From NCBI RefSeq assembly GCF_016102285.1, contig NZ_JACFOY010000001.1, forward strand, positions 2,420,017 to 2,484,016: a stretch of DNA of 64,000 nt. The letters run 5' to 3'. Source of the stretch: Bartonella sp. M0177. GTDB taxonomy: Bacteria; Pseudomonadota; Alphaproteobacteria; Rhizobiales; Rhizobiaceae. Of this stretch, positions 59,769-64,000 are shown one piece after another. The notes beneath the pieces are model-generated. The model saw only the letters and a list, made by a program, of their open reading frames with translations. It was not told the DNA's origin and did not search any database. The position numbers were made by a program, and so were the translations under genes. Numbering within the stretch: the stretch's first letter is position 1; each line of letters begins with the position of its first letter.

Positions 59769-60034
59769 GACCGGTCTCCCTGGTGAAATTATCCGGATTA
59801 ATCAGCTAGGCTCCGAATTGCGATAGCCCTTGTTTTAATAAATACTTGTCTTGATAAATATCAGGATAGAACCAATTCCTAGAATGATATAGCGATTATA
59901 TACTTTACAGACGATTATAATAAAAATTTTTTCTACAAAATTCGGAAAAGTAAGAAAATTAACCCTGATTAAAAGAACGGGGAAGTTACCGGATTGTTTT
60001 CCCCGTCCTTTCCGGTTTGATATTTGGCAGAGCT
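59769..60034. other. Intergenic region between cysK and a gene remnant
   Basis: 266 bp, AT-rich, contains the cysK promoter. GGGGAA/TTCCCC dyad at about 59981-60005 is a possible terminator. No gene seen. Confidence 0.4.
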
Positions 60035-60163
60035 TTAATAGCTGCTTGCCTCATTAAGAGCGTCAATATCCTCTTTACTCAAATTTATCATTGTTGCTTT
60101 GACGAGGCTATAAAGTTGGTCAAGCCTTGTTGCGCTGGCAACATTAATAAATAAATTGACAAT
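60035..60163 (-). pseudogene. Aldo/keto reductase C-terminal remnant
   Basis: The minus strand encodes INVASATRLDQLYSLVKAT then INLSKEDIDALNEASSY and a stop (60035-60037). This is the usual C-terminal end of aldo/keto reductases (family pattern IPGATSxEQLxxNxxAxxxxLSxEDxxALDxAS). The rest of the gene is missing: the upstream DNA is the AT-rich hxs region. It marks the left border of that region. Confidence 0.55.
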
Positions 60164-60183
60164 ATCTCATATTTAGAATAACT
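60156..60183 (+). promoter_or_regulatory. Candidate promoter of the hxs operon
   Basis: A perfect TTGACA (60156-60161) is followed by AT-rich sequence with weak -10 candidates (AATAAC at 15-nt spacing, TAGAAT too close). It sits 50 bp upstream of the first hxs gene. Confidence 0.3.
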
Positions 60184-60216
60184 CAAAAAAATAAAGATGT
60201 TTGTGAGAGGGCTCTC

Positions 60217-60507
60217 ATGAAAAAAAGGCTTTTTTTTGCTTCTATAGCTGCTTTAACTGCTGGCCTGACCGGCGGGGATGCGACAGCTTCTACGAATATC
60301 AATACCAAAGTAGAATCTGCTTCAGAGACTGGAATTAACAATAGTCTTACATCTAAAACCATGATGATTTCTAACGGAAATGATCCTTTTTCTTTTATTC
60401 TGAAAACTTCAGCTCCGGCAAATGCTATGGATTATCATATGTCACATAGCTCACATAGCTCACATAGTTCTCACGCCTCTCATAGTTCACATTATTCAGG
60501 TTATTAA
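60217..60507 (+). CDS. hxsA: His-Xaa-Ser repeat precursor peptide (HxsA-type)
   Basis: 96 residues, ATG with GAGAGGG 6 nt upstream. The N-terminus MKKRLFFASIAALTAGLTGG looks like a signal or leader segment; a polar Ser/Thr/Asn-rich middle follows; residues 74-94 are seven uninterrupted His-Xaa-Ser triplets (HMS, HSS, HSS, HSS, HAS, HSS, HYS), ending GY. This is the substrate of the Hxs peptide-modification system, whose maturases HxsB and HxsC and helper HxsD follow. The peptide differs from typical exporters' substrates in having no protease or transporter gene nearby. Symbol given by analogy: it may be one of the HxsA variants. Confidence 0.85.
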   Translation: MKKRLFFASIAALTAGLTGGDATASTNINTKVESASETGINNSLTSKTMMISNGNDPFSFILKTSAPANAMDYHMSHSSHSSHSSHASHSSHYSGY

Positions 60508-60526
60508 TAACCAGGTTATTAATAAT

Positions 60527-60829
60527 ATGTCTAACAGAGTGATATTAGAGTTTGATTGTGTAATTTATAGTTCCACTGCAATTCAAAAGGCTGCATACAG
60601 AGCTATGAATTTTATGCTCGTGCACATTGATCTAAATGAAGAGAAAATTATTTGCATTTGTGAGCCTACATCTGAAACGGATAATGACCAATTCGAGAAA
60701 GCAATACAAGAATTTAAAAAAGACGTATTGGACTATAGCTTACGTGAAAAAATTCGAGATGAAACTACTCCGATACGGAATTTAATATTAGGTATTGCTT
60801 TTTCAAGAACAGGTGCGGGAAGTGAGTAA
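60527..60829 (+). CDS. hxsD: His-Xaa-Ser system protein HxsD
   Basis: 100 residues from the ATG at 60527, 19 nt after the precursor gene; only a weak AGG 11 nt upstream. Features fit HxsD: NRVILEFDCVIYSSTAIQKAAYRAM at the N-terminus, then an acidic middle and a helical end. HxsD is always found with HxsB and HxsC and probably serves as the peptide-recognition partner or adaptor; this is not shown biochemically here. Its stop codon lies inside the hxsB start region (8-nt overlap). Confidence 0.88.
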   Translation: MSNRVILEFDCVIYSSTAIQKAAYRAMNFMLVHIDLNEEKIICICEPTSETDNDQFEKAIQEFKKDVLDYSLREKIRDETTPIRNLILGIAFSRTGAGSE

Positions 60830-62279
60830 ATTTAAAAGTATTGATTCCTATACTCCAAAAAAAGAATATGAACTTTTACCATTTAAATTTGATCATTTTG
60901 ACGATAAGCGTTGTATCATTACAAATATGGTAGGTGAATATCTATTATTAAATAATAATGATTTATATAGGCTAATAAATAAAAAAATTTCGTCTGATAG
61001 TTCTATATTTTCTTCATTACGTAGTAAGCACTTTATTCGTTATGAAGGTGAAAATTCACCTTTAGAACTTTTAGCTTTAAAATATAGGACTAGGCTTTCT
61101 AAGCTGGTTAACTTTACTAATTTACATGTTTTTGTAGTCACATTACGGTGTGATCATAGTTGTCCTTATTGTCAAGTATCACGGCAATCAGAAGATAAAA
61201 ATCAATTTGATATGACGTATGAGATGGCTGACAAAGCATTAGATTTTGTTTTTAAATCGCCAAATCCAGCCATTAAAATTGAATTTCAGGGCGGCGAACC
61301 GTTATTAAATTTCCCAATGGTTCAATATATTGTTGAACAGGCAGAATTTCGGAATAAATCGGAAAACCGTAATTTACAGTTTGTTATTGCTACTACACTT
61401 TCGTTATTAACGGATGAAATCCTTGAATTTTGTCGTGACCACTCAGTTATGTTGTCCTCATCTCTAGATGGCCCTCAAAATTTGCATAATGCAAATCGTC
61501 CAAGACCCTCAAAAAATAGCCATCAGCTATTTGAGGACGGATTAAATAAAGCGAGAGCAGTTTTGGGTTATGACCAAGTGTCAGCGTTAATGACAACAAC
61601 AGACAAGAGCCTATCCCGTGTTCGTGATATAATAGATGAATACGTTAGACTTGGATTTAACAGCGTTTTTTTACGCGCACTCTCGCCTTATGGTTTTGCG
61701 ATCAAAACAAAACGTTACATGATGTATGACGTAGATCGCTGGCTAAAATTTTTTAAAGAGGGTTTGGATTATATTATATTTTTGAATAAGTCAGGCATTC
61801 CTTTTGTCGAGGTTTATTCGGCATTGATATTAAAAAAGATGCTAACATCTGACGATCCAGGCTTTGTCGATTTAATGAATCCTGCTGGAGCAGGTATAGC
61901 CGCGATTGTTTTTAACTATGATGGTTATGTCTATGCCTCAGATGAAAGTCGCATGTTAGCCGAGATGGGCGATTTTAAATTTAGATTAGGGAATATATTA
62001 ACGCAATCTTATGAAGATATTATCTTTTCGGATCAACTTCTAGATGCTTTGGAAGACTCATTTACGCTCAGTGTTCCTATGTGCTCTGATTGTGCCTTTG
62101 AACCATATTGCGGTGCTGAACCTGTCTTTCATTATGCCGTCTATAAAGACATGGTTGGACGAAAACCAGAATCTGCTTTTTGTAAAAAAAATATGTCGAT
62201 TTATAAGCACTTAATAACACTGATGGAGAACGACGAAGAAACGAAAAGTATATTTCTTAGATGGGCAACTCAATGTTAA
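60822..62279 (+). CDS. hxsB: Radical SAM maturase HxsB
   Basis: 485 residues from a GTG at 60822, chosen because AGG lies 8 nt upstream and the overlap with hxsD couples translation. The radical SAM cluster motif is CDHSCPYC (Cys110, Cys114, Cys117), followed by FQGGEPLLNF (SAM-binding GGEP). A C-terminal SPASM-like domain has Cys421, Cys424, Cys430 and Cys454 (MCSDCAFEPYCGAEP, then SAFCKKN). Length, SPASM domain and the partner genes identify HxsB, one of two SAM enzymes thought to act on the His-Xaa-Ser region. Strongly AT-rich codon use sets it apart from the neighbouring housekeeping genes. Confidence 0.92.
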   Translation: MSKFKSIDSYTPKKEYELLPFKFDHFDDKRCIITNMVGEYLLLNNNDLYRLINKKISSDSSIFSSLRSKHFIRYEGENSPLELLALKYRTRLSKLVNFTNLHVFVVTLRCDHSCPYCQVSRQSEDKNQFDMTYEMADKALDFVFKSPNPAIKIEFQGGEPLLNFPMVQYIVEQAEFRNKSENRNLQFVIATTLSLLTDEILEFCRDHSVMLSSSLDGPQNLHNANRPRPSKNSHQLFEDGLNKARAVLGYDQVSALMTTTDKSLSRVRDIIDEYVRLGFNSVFLRALSPYGFAIKTKRYMMYDVDRWLKFFKEGLDYIIFLNKSGIPFVEVYSALILKKMLTSDDPGFVDLMNPAGAGIAAIVFNYDGYVYASDESRMLAEMGDFKFRLGNILTQSYEDIIFSDQLLDALEDSFTLSVPMCSDCAFEPYCGAEPVFHYAVYKDMVGRKPESAFCKKNMSIYKHLITLMENDEETKSIFLRWATQC

Positions 62280-63433
62280 AGTTATTTGGAAATATAAAGA
62301 ATCATATTTTTGATGACAATTTGTTTGTGAATCCAATTAAAATTTCGACTAACGCGAATTTACCAAACGTTTTAAAAAATAAATATGCCTATTTAATTAA
62401 TGATAATAATTACAGCGAGGGGTTTTTTCATTATATAGTTTTTAATGATTTTTTTGAAAAAAATAAAGAAGTTTTAGAGACAAAAAGTTACTCTATAATT
62501 CCCGACGATTTTAAATATTTATCTAACGATGATATCGTAAGTATTAATCCGAATCAGAACAAAATAAGAGTTCTTTTTAGATCGCATTCAAATTTTAATA
62601 GTATATTAGTCACAGAACAATGTAATCATTATTGTTTAATGTGCTCCCAACCGCCGAAGCCGAAAGACGATTCATATCTTCTGGACGAAATCGAAAATTT
62701 AATACCTTTGATACCAAGGTATACAAAGGAAATCGGGTTTACGGGAGGAGAACCTACTACAAATCGTGATCGATTTTTGAAAATACTCCGTCTAACTAAA
62801 AGCTATCTACCAGAAACGAGTATTCACATATTATCAAACGGCAGGAGTTTTCGGGATTTCCATTTTGCACAAAGTTATGCAGATCTAGAGCTTACTGATA
62901 GTATGGTGGGTATTCCTCTTTATTCTGATGACCCGAGTTTGCACAATTATATTGTGCAGTCAGATAATGCTTTTGATGAAACTGTACAGGGCATAATAAA
63001 TTTAAAAAGGTTAAACCAAAAGGTTGAAATTAGAATCGTACTTCACCGGTTATCTGTAAAACGTTTAATTCAGTTATGCGAATTTATAGGTAGAAATTTG
63101 CTTTTCGTGGACCATGTGGCTCTTATGGGGCTTGAAATAATGGGTTTTACTCGAGCGAATTTACAAGAGTTATGGATAGACCCGTTTGATTATAAAGATA
63201 AATTAAGCCAAGCGACATCCATTTTAAAATCGTATGGTCTAAATGCCTCTATATACAACCATCAACTATGTGTTGTGAACGAAAATGTTTGGCCGTTTTG
63301 CCGCCAATCCATTAGTGACTGGAAAAATGAATTTGCGATTGAATGTCAAACATGCACCAAGCGTTGTGATTGTGGCGGTTTTTTTTCTTCGGGCCTATTA
63401 TACAAACACAGCGACCACTTACATCCGTTGTAA
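62273..63433 (+). CDS. hxsC: Radical SAM maturase HxsC
   Basis: 386 residues from the ATG at 62273, preferred because MLKLFGNI resembles HxsC N-termini; an ATG at 62261 adds four residues, and neither has a good ribosome site, so coupling to hxsB (7-nt overlap) is likely. Radical SAM motif CNHYCLMC (Cys117, Cys121, Cys124) and FTGGEPTTN are clear. The C-terminal Cys cluster (FCRQSISDW, CQTCTKRCDCGGFFSSG) is the HxsC-type ending and could bind further metal centres. Second maturase of the system. Confidence 0.92.
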   Translation: MLKLFGNIKNHIFDDNLFVNPIKISTNANLPNVLKNKYAYLINDNNYSEGFFHYIVFNDFFEKNKEVLETKSYSIIPDDFKYLSNDDIVSINPNQNKIRVLFRSHSNFNSILVTEQCNHYCLMCSQPPKPKDDSYLLDEIENLIPLIPRYTKEIGFTGGEPTTNRDRFLKILRLTKSYLPETSIHILSNGRSFRDFHFAQSYADLELTDSMVGIPLYSDDPSLHNYIVQSDNAFDETVQGIINLKRLNQKVEIRIVLHRLSVKRLIQLCEFIGRNLLFVDHVALMGLEIMGFTRANLQELWIDPFDYKDKLSQATSILKSYGLNASIYNHQLCVVNENVWPFCRQSISDWKNEFAIECQTCTKRCDCGGFFSSGLLYKHSDHLHPL

Positions 63434-63443
63434 GGAAGTTGAT

Positions 63444-63509
63444 ATGAGAGGAAATTTTTCTCAAATCGCAATTAATGGCAGGATCAAAACTAATAAAAGC
63501 GAAGAGTAA
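63444..63509 (+). CDS. Candidate 21-residue peptide after hxsC
   Basis: ATG at 63444 with AAGGAAG 5 nt upstream, the best ribosome site in this operon; 10 nt after the hxsC stop codon. The peptide begins MRGNFSQIAINGRIKTN and ends KSEE. It has no Cys or His-Xaa-Ser. It could be an unannotated part of the operon or a chance frame. Confidence 0.35.
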   Translation: MRGNFSQIAINGRIKTNKSEE

Positions 63510-63538
63510 AATGCATTTAATGGATTTATATAATCGTA

Positions 63539-64000
63539 TTATTTAATTCCATAACTTAAAACTTGGGTGCCGCATATTTTGACCATTGATACGACTATAG
63601 CTGCTGCATCATATCCGGTGCAGTTTCCTGTAAAACTGCATATGGCTTCAGAAACACTAACATTGGCGCATTGGTTTCGATTACCACCTAAAGCTAAGCA
63701 TATACCTATGCCTAAGCCGTTATCTCCTATTCCGGTACAGTCGTAGCTGGCTCTCCCCCCTGAAATGCAAATAGCTTCGCCTAAGCTCATCTGGCTGTTA
63801 CATCGCAATGATGAACCTGTTCCAGCAGCACAGATGCCGGCTCCCAAGCTCATCTCGCTGTTACATAGAAATGATGAACCTGTTCCAGCAGCACAGATGC
63901 CGGCTCCTAAGCTCATCTCGCTGTTACATAGAAATGATGAACCTGTTCCAGCAGCACAGATGCCGGCTCCCAAGCTCATCTCGCTGTTACATAGAAATGA
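63539..64000 (-). CDS. Cys-rich tandem-repeat protein, C-terminal part (cut by the right edge)
   Basis: The frame is open from the edge to a TAA at 63539-63541 (153 residues visible; start outside). It consists of 21-residue repeats of the form SFLCNSE-MSLGAGICAAGTGS, nearly identical in the first three visible units, then diverging (SLRCNSQMSLGEAIC, SYDCTG...GLGIGICLALGG, NQCANVSVSEAICSFTG) and ending in a short unique tail with one more Cys. Each unit has two Cys 10 residues apart and a Leu-Gly-x-x-Ile-Cys core. The regular spacing suggests a solenoid or a chain of disulfide or modified loops. I do not recognise the family. It converges on the hxs operon. Confidence 0.7.
   Translation of the reverse strand, partial: SFLCNSEMSLGAGICAAGTGSSFLCNSEMSLGAGICAAGTGSSFLCNSEMSLGAGICAAGTGSSLRCNSQMSLGEAICISGGRASYDCTGIGDNGLGIGICLALGGNRNQCANVSVSEAICSFTGNCTGYDAAAIVVSMVKICGTQVLSYGIK
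63786..64000 (-). repeat. 63-bp coding tandem repeat
   Basis: Units start at 63786, 63849, 63912 and 63975 (last one cut by the edge). Units at 63849 and 63912 differ at one base; the 63786 unit has a few changes. Exactly 21 codons each, so reading frame is kept. The array continues beyond the window. Confidence 0.92.

Follow-up and report, generated by a model that had tools for sequence, protein, structure and literature searches.

The stretch of Bartonella sp. M0177 DNA analysed here (the window, 64,000 nucleotides; C1:2420017-2484016 of a 2.62-Mb, three-contig genome, G000) ends where contig C1 ends and contains, close to that end, a His-Xaa-Ser (Hxs) peptide-modification operon on the forward strand. 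The operon consists of hxsA (60217..60507), which encodes an HxsA2-type precursor of 96 aa without cysteine, hxsD (60527..60829; 100 aa), hxsB (60822..62279; 485 aa), which encodes a radical S-adenosylmethionine (SAM) maturase with a SPASM-like C-terminus, and hxsC (62261..63433; 390 aa), which encodes a second radical SAM maturase. All four proteins score above the NCBIfam cut-offs that define membership of the system: NF038296 for HxsA2 (62.3 bits, cut-off 48), TIGR03976 for HxsD (62.8 bits, cut-off 50), TIGR03978 for HxsB (639.8 bits, cut-off 370), and TIGR03977 for HxsC (388.5 bits, cut-off 267.9). This profile check bears out a preliminary description of the DNA, in which a complete Hxs operon had been reported, and hxsA-hxsD-hxsB-hxsC is, with practically no doubt, a complete member of that known system.

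There is a gap of 19 nt between hxsA and hxsD, an overlap of 8 nt between hxsD and hxsB, and an overlap of 19 nt between hxsB and hxsC; hxsB starts with GTG at 60822, with an in-frame TTG at 60795. Because the junctions are tight or overlapping, the coupled starts reported previously are real. Predicted promoters and terminators are no more frequent than in shuffled sequences (14 versus 16.5 and 3 versus 2.9, respectively). The nearest named relative of HxsC is from B. choladocola BBC0122 (99 % identity), a species that inhabits honey bee guts. Since the HxsD of B. choladocola already carries that name in the source database, this Hxs member is not in itself unknown.

Precursor array and conserved cysteines

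The precursor contains seven tandem His-Xaa-Ser triplets at residues 74-94 (60436..60498, forward strand), in register as HMS HSS HSS HSS HAS HSS HYS and followed by GY. In 200,000 shuffles of its 96 residues, the longest in-register run was four triplets, seen once, confirming the array as it had been described. Together with the four curated family matches, the shuffles rule out an artefact or chance array. This is the sole HxsA2 match in the genome. In correction of the preliminary description, the class of the precursor is HxsA2 and not classical HxsA (TIGR03979), for which it scores 15.8 bits against a cut-off of 121.65; a Pfam scan of the precursor returned no match, peptidoglycan-binding domain included.

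Both radical SAM proteins have the intact CxxxCxxC motif that had been reported for them. In HxsB (C110, C114, and C117; 61149..61172, forward strand) it is identical in 34/34 aligned sequences, and in HxsC (C121, C125, and C128; 62621..62644, forward strand) in 35/35; these alignments omit HxsB sequences below 400 aa and HxsC sequences below 340 aa, and include the window and near-identical Bartonella sequences. Eight of the ten HxsB cysteines (110, 114, 117, 204, 421, 424, 430, and 454) and seven cysteines of HxsC (121, 125, 128, 337, 362, 365, and 371) are identical throughout. Window HxsB has no cysteine between 204 and 421, and proline at 434. Judged from these residues, HxsB keeps the putative cysteine ligands of one auxiliary cluster, without those of the other (auxiliary-I). 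The HxsB structure model (predicted local distance difference test score, pLDDT, 81.4) has predicted strands and then helices at residues 16-97. HxsD has a predicted strand-helix-strand-strand-helix fold (pLDDT 90.4); that it might itself be a recognition element for ribosomally synthesized and post-translationally modified peptides (RiPPs), with a PqqD-like fold, is a possibility that gained no support.

A direct-repeat cassette and its very probable movement between species

The hxs operon and a gene for a secreted cysteine-rich repeat protein form a cassette of approximately 4.2 kb, bordered by direct repeats of approximately 290 bp. The left repeat (59850..60139) comprises the 3′ end of an aldo/keto reductase (AKR) gene, its last 35 codons, and downstream sequence; it is 88.6 % identical to the right copy, which lies inside an intact AKR gene at C1:495-784 (L005). 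The cassette occupies 60140..64000 of the window and resumes past the contig end at C1:1-494, and its left border is identical in genomes G000, G014, and G062. G+C content is 35.3 % in this part of the cassette versus 45.5 % at 1-58000 of the window. Going by the repeat borders, the G062 copy of the cassette measures 4191 bp and the G014 copy 4269 bp. In the window genome, the cassette is split into 3861 bp at the end of the contig and 494 bp at its start, but C1:1-194 is 99 % like 63807-64000 of the window. As contig C1 begins and ends inside the 63-bp repeat array of the repeat-protein gene, the array may have been collapsed or truncated during assembly, the two parts may overlap, and the total length here is unsure.

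The flanking genes were sought in six genomes. The three carriers (G000, G014, and G062, the last an 85 % complete assembly) have the order cysK, repeat, hxsADBC, repeat-protein gene on the opposite strand, and repeat within the intact AKR gene, whereas the empty sites of G045 (same species as the window genome), G003, and G044 have cysK, a single repeat, and the AKR gene. Across the genus, HxsB is above its cut-off in 3 out of 71 genomes and the repeat protein is present in the same three; across the order, HxsC is above its cut-off in 11 out of 397 genomes, window genome included. In the G014 cassette, every open reading frame (ORF) is one of the four hxs genes, the repeat-protein gene, or a frame that overlaps one of them, which leaves no room for a recombinase.

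Between G000 and G014, DNA identity is 97.7-98.6 % in the four hxs genes versus 80.9 % in cysK and 78.5 % in the AKR gene. Synonymous divergence (dS) for this pair is 0.051 in hxsD, 0.055 in hxsB, and 0.072 in hxsC, versus 1.54 in cysK and 2.25 in the AKR gene; between G000 and G062 it is 0.044-0.069 in these hxs genes versus 0.19-0.20 in the flanks. The hxs copies differ by few amino-acid-changing substitutions; in hxsB of G000 and G014 there are 16 synonymous and four nonsynonymous changes. Because dS is so much lower in hxsD, hxsB, and hxsC than in the flanking genes, the cassette has very probably moved between Bartonella species, and the transfer is likely to be recent.

The repeats themselves bear on how this came about. 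The left repeat of G000 is 96.2 % like that of the same-species G045. For the right repeat, the likeness is 93.8 % to its counterpart in G062 and 88.3 % to G045. Import of the cassette from a G062-like donor by homologous recombination would produce this pattern. It is also conceivable, if rather unlikely, that the cassette is ancestral in this Bartonella group and has often been lost by recombination between its direct repeats, its interior having later been homogenised between species. This would account for empty sites that hold a single clean repeat, as excision would leave, for a left border that is the same in three carriers though their repeats are species-specific, and for the two G014 repeats, which are 95.4 % alike and only 60.6-68.6 % like all others. 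However, a left repeat nearer G045 and a right repeat nearer G062 in the same genome fit import, with part of the repeats, into an empty site. The cassette interior moved between species under either reading.

In a tree of 43 HxsC sequences, the three Bartonella sequences group with 12 from Pseudomonas (support 99/96), apart from ten sequences of other genomes of the order. L021 and L047 were removed from this tree, which also omits L090 and, because of their short length, L054 and L056. As identity between Bartonella and Pseudomonas HxsC is 60-62 % and long branches were flagged, no donor is named. HxsC relatives below 60 % identity were also found on 429 out of 72,556 plasmid records, 330 of these from Klebsiella; 344 of the 429 are typed as conjugative and 23 cover 80 % of the query. 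Among 50,697 phage records there are two with HxsC relatives, Leptospira phage KF114877.1 and the unannotated faecal phage contig MT837156.1. Some related operons are possibly broken: hxsB is split into two ORFs in L038, approximately 2 kb separate hxsD and hxsB in L055, and hxsC of L090 contains an in-frame TGA. A 3551-bp contig filed under a Gilliamella metagenome-assembled genome (L021) also contains the cassette, and its HxsC shares 99 % identity with that of the window; misbinning is likely, although it may represent transfer to another bee-gut genus.

The second component of the cassette is a signal-peptide-bearing, cysteine-rich protein with 21-aa repeats, encoded by the 63-bp DNA repeats. 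Its C-terminal part is encoded at 63539..64000 on the reverse strand, with the start at C1:380 (L005). Ten database proteins are related to it, among the 7994 candidates sharing the most words; there are none in the non-Bartonella loci among L021-L056 and none, except the window genome's own, in the loci of the long-HxsA search. Within the order it was found in 1 out of 397 genomes, the window genome itself. Three repeat proteins scanned against Pfam, including the full-length G014 copy, had nothing above cut-off, and the part in the window had no NCBIfam match. With no relatives in the other Hxs loci searched, the idea that the repeat protein is a partner of Hxs systems in general is rejected, and its cassette linkage with the hxs operon is a weak sign of joint function. 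The preliminary description of this DNA had noted neither the cassette borders nor the gene for the secreted repeat protein, nor the very probable transfer between species.

Probable export of the precursor

Codons 1-24 of hxsA (60217..60288, forward strand) encode a signal-like segment ending in Ala-Thr-Ala, as called by a heuristic that looks for at least one basic residue, a hydrophobic stretch, and a small-x-small motif. Among 36 related loci, HxsA was found by phmmer in 33 and HxsB in 34; with L021 omitted, its gene being cut by the contig, there are 32 N-terminally complete HxsA2-type precursors. By the same heuristic all 32 have a signal-like N-terminus, and in 26 the motif behind the hydrophobic stretch is Ala-x-Ala. 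The signal-like start, previously thought unusual, is therefore family-wide.

The same applies to the absence of an adjacent transporter or protease, also remarked upon in the preliminary description, since no such neighbour was seen to recur among related loci. No cluster of the 259 neighbouring ORFs recurs in more than five loci. Pfam scanning of 106 of these (the nearest two ORFs of at least 90 aa on each side, omitting the near copy L023 and the L052 precursor) identified methyltransferases (five), phage integrases (four), and major facilitator superfamily transporters (three), and the 25 neighbour families displayed, out of 74, include neither an ATP-binding cassette exporter nor a leader peptidase. 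Four loci of Limnohabitans and Neopusillimonas (L044, L046, L048, and L049) have three genes in common downstream of hxsC, including a carbamoyltransferase, which are possibly an extended Hxs pathway.

Seven loci from the same order, as well as Veillonella, have a long HxsA relative next to hxsC, while in L079, L082, L083, and L085 there is no HxsA within flanks of roughly 1 kb. All eight long relatives examined have a C-terminal PG_binding_1 domain above the Pfam cut-off, behind the HxS array. The TIGR03979 cut-off is exceeded by six of them, the exceptions being L084 (99.7) and L052 (45.3). The two proteins of the short HxsA2 type that were scanned (L072 and L026) have no Pfam match and so lack the anchor domain. 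Binding to peptidoglycan is a function expected outside the cytoplasm, so that is probably where the array is displayed, and it is probable from these relatives and the predicted signal that the modified precursor is exported from the cell. The earlier suggestion of presentation outside the cytoplasm thus gains support from the long relatives, although the signal-like start is not the distinguishing feature it was taken to be. No Arg-Arg pair occurs within the first 12 residues of the 32 complete HxsA2-type precursors, the motif expected for twin-arginine translocation (Tat); it is present near the start of two out of eight long relatives (L088 and L089, read by eye), for which Tat export may apply.

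Proposed chemistry of the product and comparison with known systems

The reading tentatively preferred for the locus, at somewhat less than even confidence, is of an HxsA2-type operon on a mobile cassette, the product of which would have His and Ser joined in each triplet by the two radical SAM enzymes before likely export by the general secretory pathway. For the chemistry, one His-Ser crosslink per triplet is the likeliest option, although it too falls a little short of an even chance. HxsB, with an N-terminal domain predicted to resemble a RiPP recognition element (PqqD-like winged helix), and HxsD would hold the conserved stretch ahead of the array (FSFILK here). HxsB would abstract hydrogen from the Ser β-carbon, and the resulting radical would be captured by the imidazole side chain of the His located two residues earlier, giving a three-residue ring as in triceptides; HxsC might make a second, unspecified change or share the triplets. 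Crosslinking would precede the likely export through the general secretory pathway, after which the signal segment would be removed and the array displayed in or beyond the periplasm. Triceptide systems (HaaB, YhhB, ScaB, and MscB) are described, in an excerpt of PMC11002830, as modifying repeats of three residues in which position i is aromatic and position i+2 offers a β-carbon, an arrangement that the HxS triplets share.

Several observations weigh against this reading. The product is a prediction from the genes, the need for two radical SAM enzymes is unexplained, and the signal call comes from a heuristic, not a trained predictor. The Pfam SPASM domain in HxsB is just under its cut-off (18.8/21.5). 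Structures 5why and 5wgg align to HxsB from residue 20, a fold comparison that barely tests its N-terminal part. The best non-Hxs NCBIfam relatives of HxsB are PapB (111.3) and CcpM (91.6), thioether-forming or related maturases, with lower scores for the cyclophane formers YhhB (64.1/445), AmcB (48.8/425), and GrrM/OscB (47.8/310); all of these are far under their cut-offs, including every curated cyclophane-forming family compared. The best structural match of HxsB is a sulfatase maturase.

If HxsB acted like an anaerobic sulfatase maturase, the Ser of every triplet would be oxidised to formylglycine, with His serving in recognition or binding metal next to the aldehyde, and there would be no crosslink. 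That is quite unlikely. HxsB scores 69.3 bits for this family (TIGR03942), against a cut-off of 349.45, and the auxiliary-I ligands given for anSMEcpe in an excerpt of PMC5715301 (Cys 255, 261, 276, and 330) have no counterpart in it, so that by the account there it does not have the cysteines for two auxiliary clusters. Ser oxidation alone would also leave the strict His at every third position unexplained. The mass test proposed in the preliminary description, a loss of 2 Da per crosslink, applies to both outcomes: taken by itself, such a loss per triplet would fit Ser oxidised to formylglycine as well as a His-Ser crosslink.

It is unlikely, if a little less so, that some other change is made, such as epimerisation, a His-only or backbone change, or a crosslink between triplets, with the array serving in the envelope as a His cluster that binds metal. 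The seven His residues stand close together in a single short array, no characterised protein is closely related to HxsC (its best non-Hxs NCBIfam score is WgkB, 41.6 bits, cut-off 650), and two enzymes may make two different changes. This would, however, leave unexplained the Ser at i+2, which is as strict as the His, and the conserved auxiliary-cluster cysteines of both enzymes. If there is instead one His-Ser ring per triplet, seven contiguous rings could form a rigid rod, displayed with the Cys-repeat protein as a two-part extracellular product traded among Bartonella symbionts, a speculation that is probably wrong.

Identification of the His-Xaa-Ser motif is credited to Haft and Basu, with maturation putatively via HxsB and HxsC, in an excerpt of PMC9062424, and hxs genes are listed for P. 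aeruginosa in part of PMC8446631. Five RiPP classes are named in an excerpt of a survey of 744 bee-gut gene clusters (PMC10673953), Hxs not being among those named there. Among the papers listed by the literature searches, none deals with how the Hxs product is built chemically. Both chemistry and role are directly testable, because the operon is compact, the genus includes B. apis, an engineered bee-gut species according to an excerpt of PMC11389375, and there is a same-species genome without the cassette. Transfer between species suggests a trait worth having, and any mechanism is concretely constrained by the peptidoglycan-binding relatives and the lack of auxiliary-I cysteines. As this kind of system is already known, what gives the locus its value is the cassette, together with the evidence on the envelope, the lack of the auxiliary-I site, and the setting it offers for testing the product.

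Compared with the Hxs loci of Pseudomonas, the operon has the same gene order, A-D-B-C, and differs only in its setting, a direct-repeat cassette with a secreted Cys-repeat gene, which among the loci compared was seen only in those of Bartonella. Classical HxsA (TIGR03979) likewise has a signal-like start and an HxS array, but it continues into a C-terminal PG_binding_1 domain, whereas the window protein ends with the array. With respect to anSMEcpe (4k38), window HxsB is below the family cut-off, lacks the auxiliary-I cysteines, and has a different substrate motif. Triceptide systems share with Hxs the aromatic residue at i, the crosslinkable β-carbon at i+2, and a radical SAM enzyme that has a domain for an auxiliary cluster; the window system differs from them in its two radical SAM enzymes and HxsD and in its scores below the family cut-offs, and its rings are predicted.
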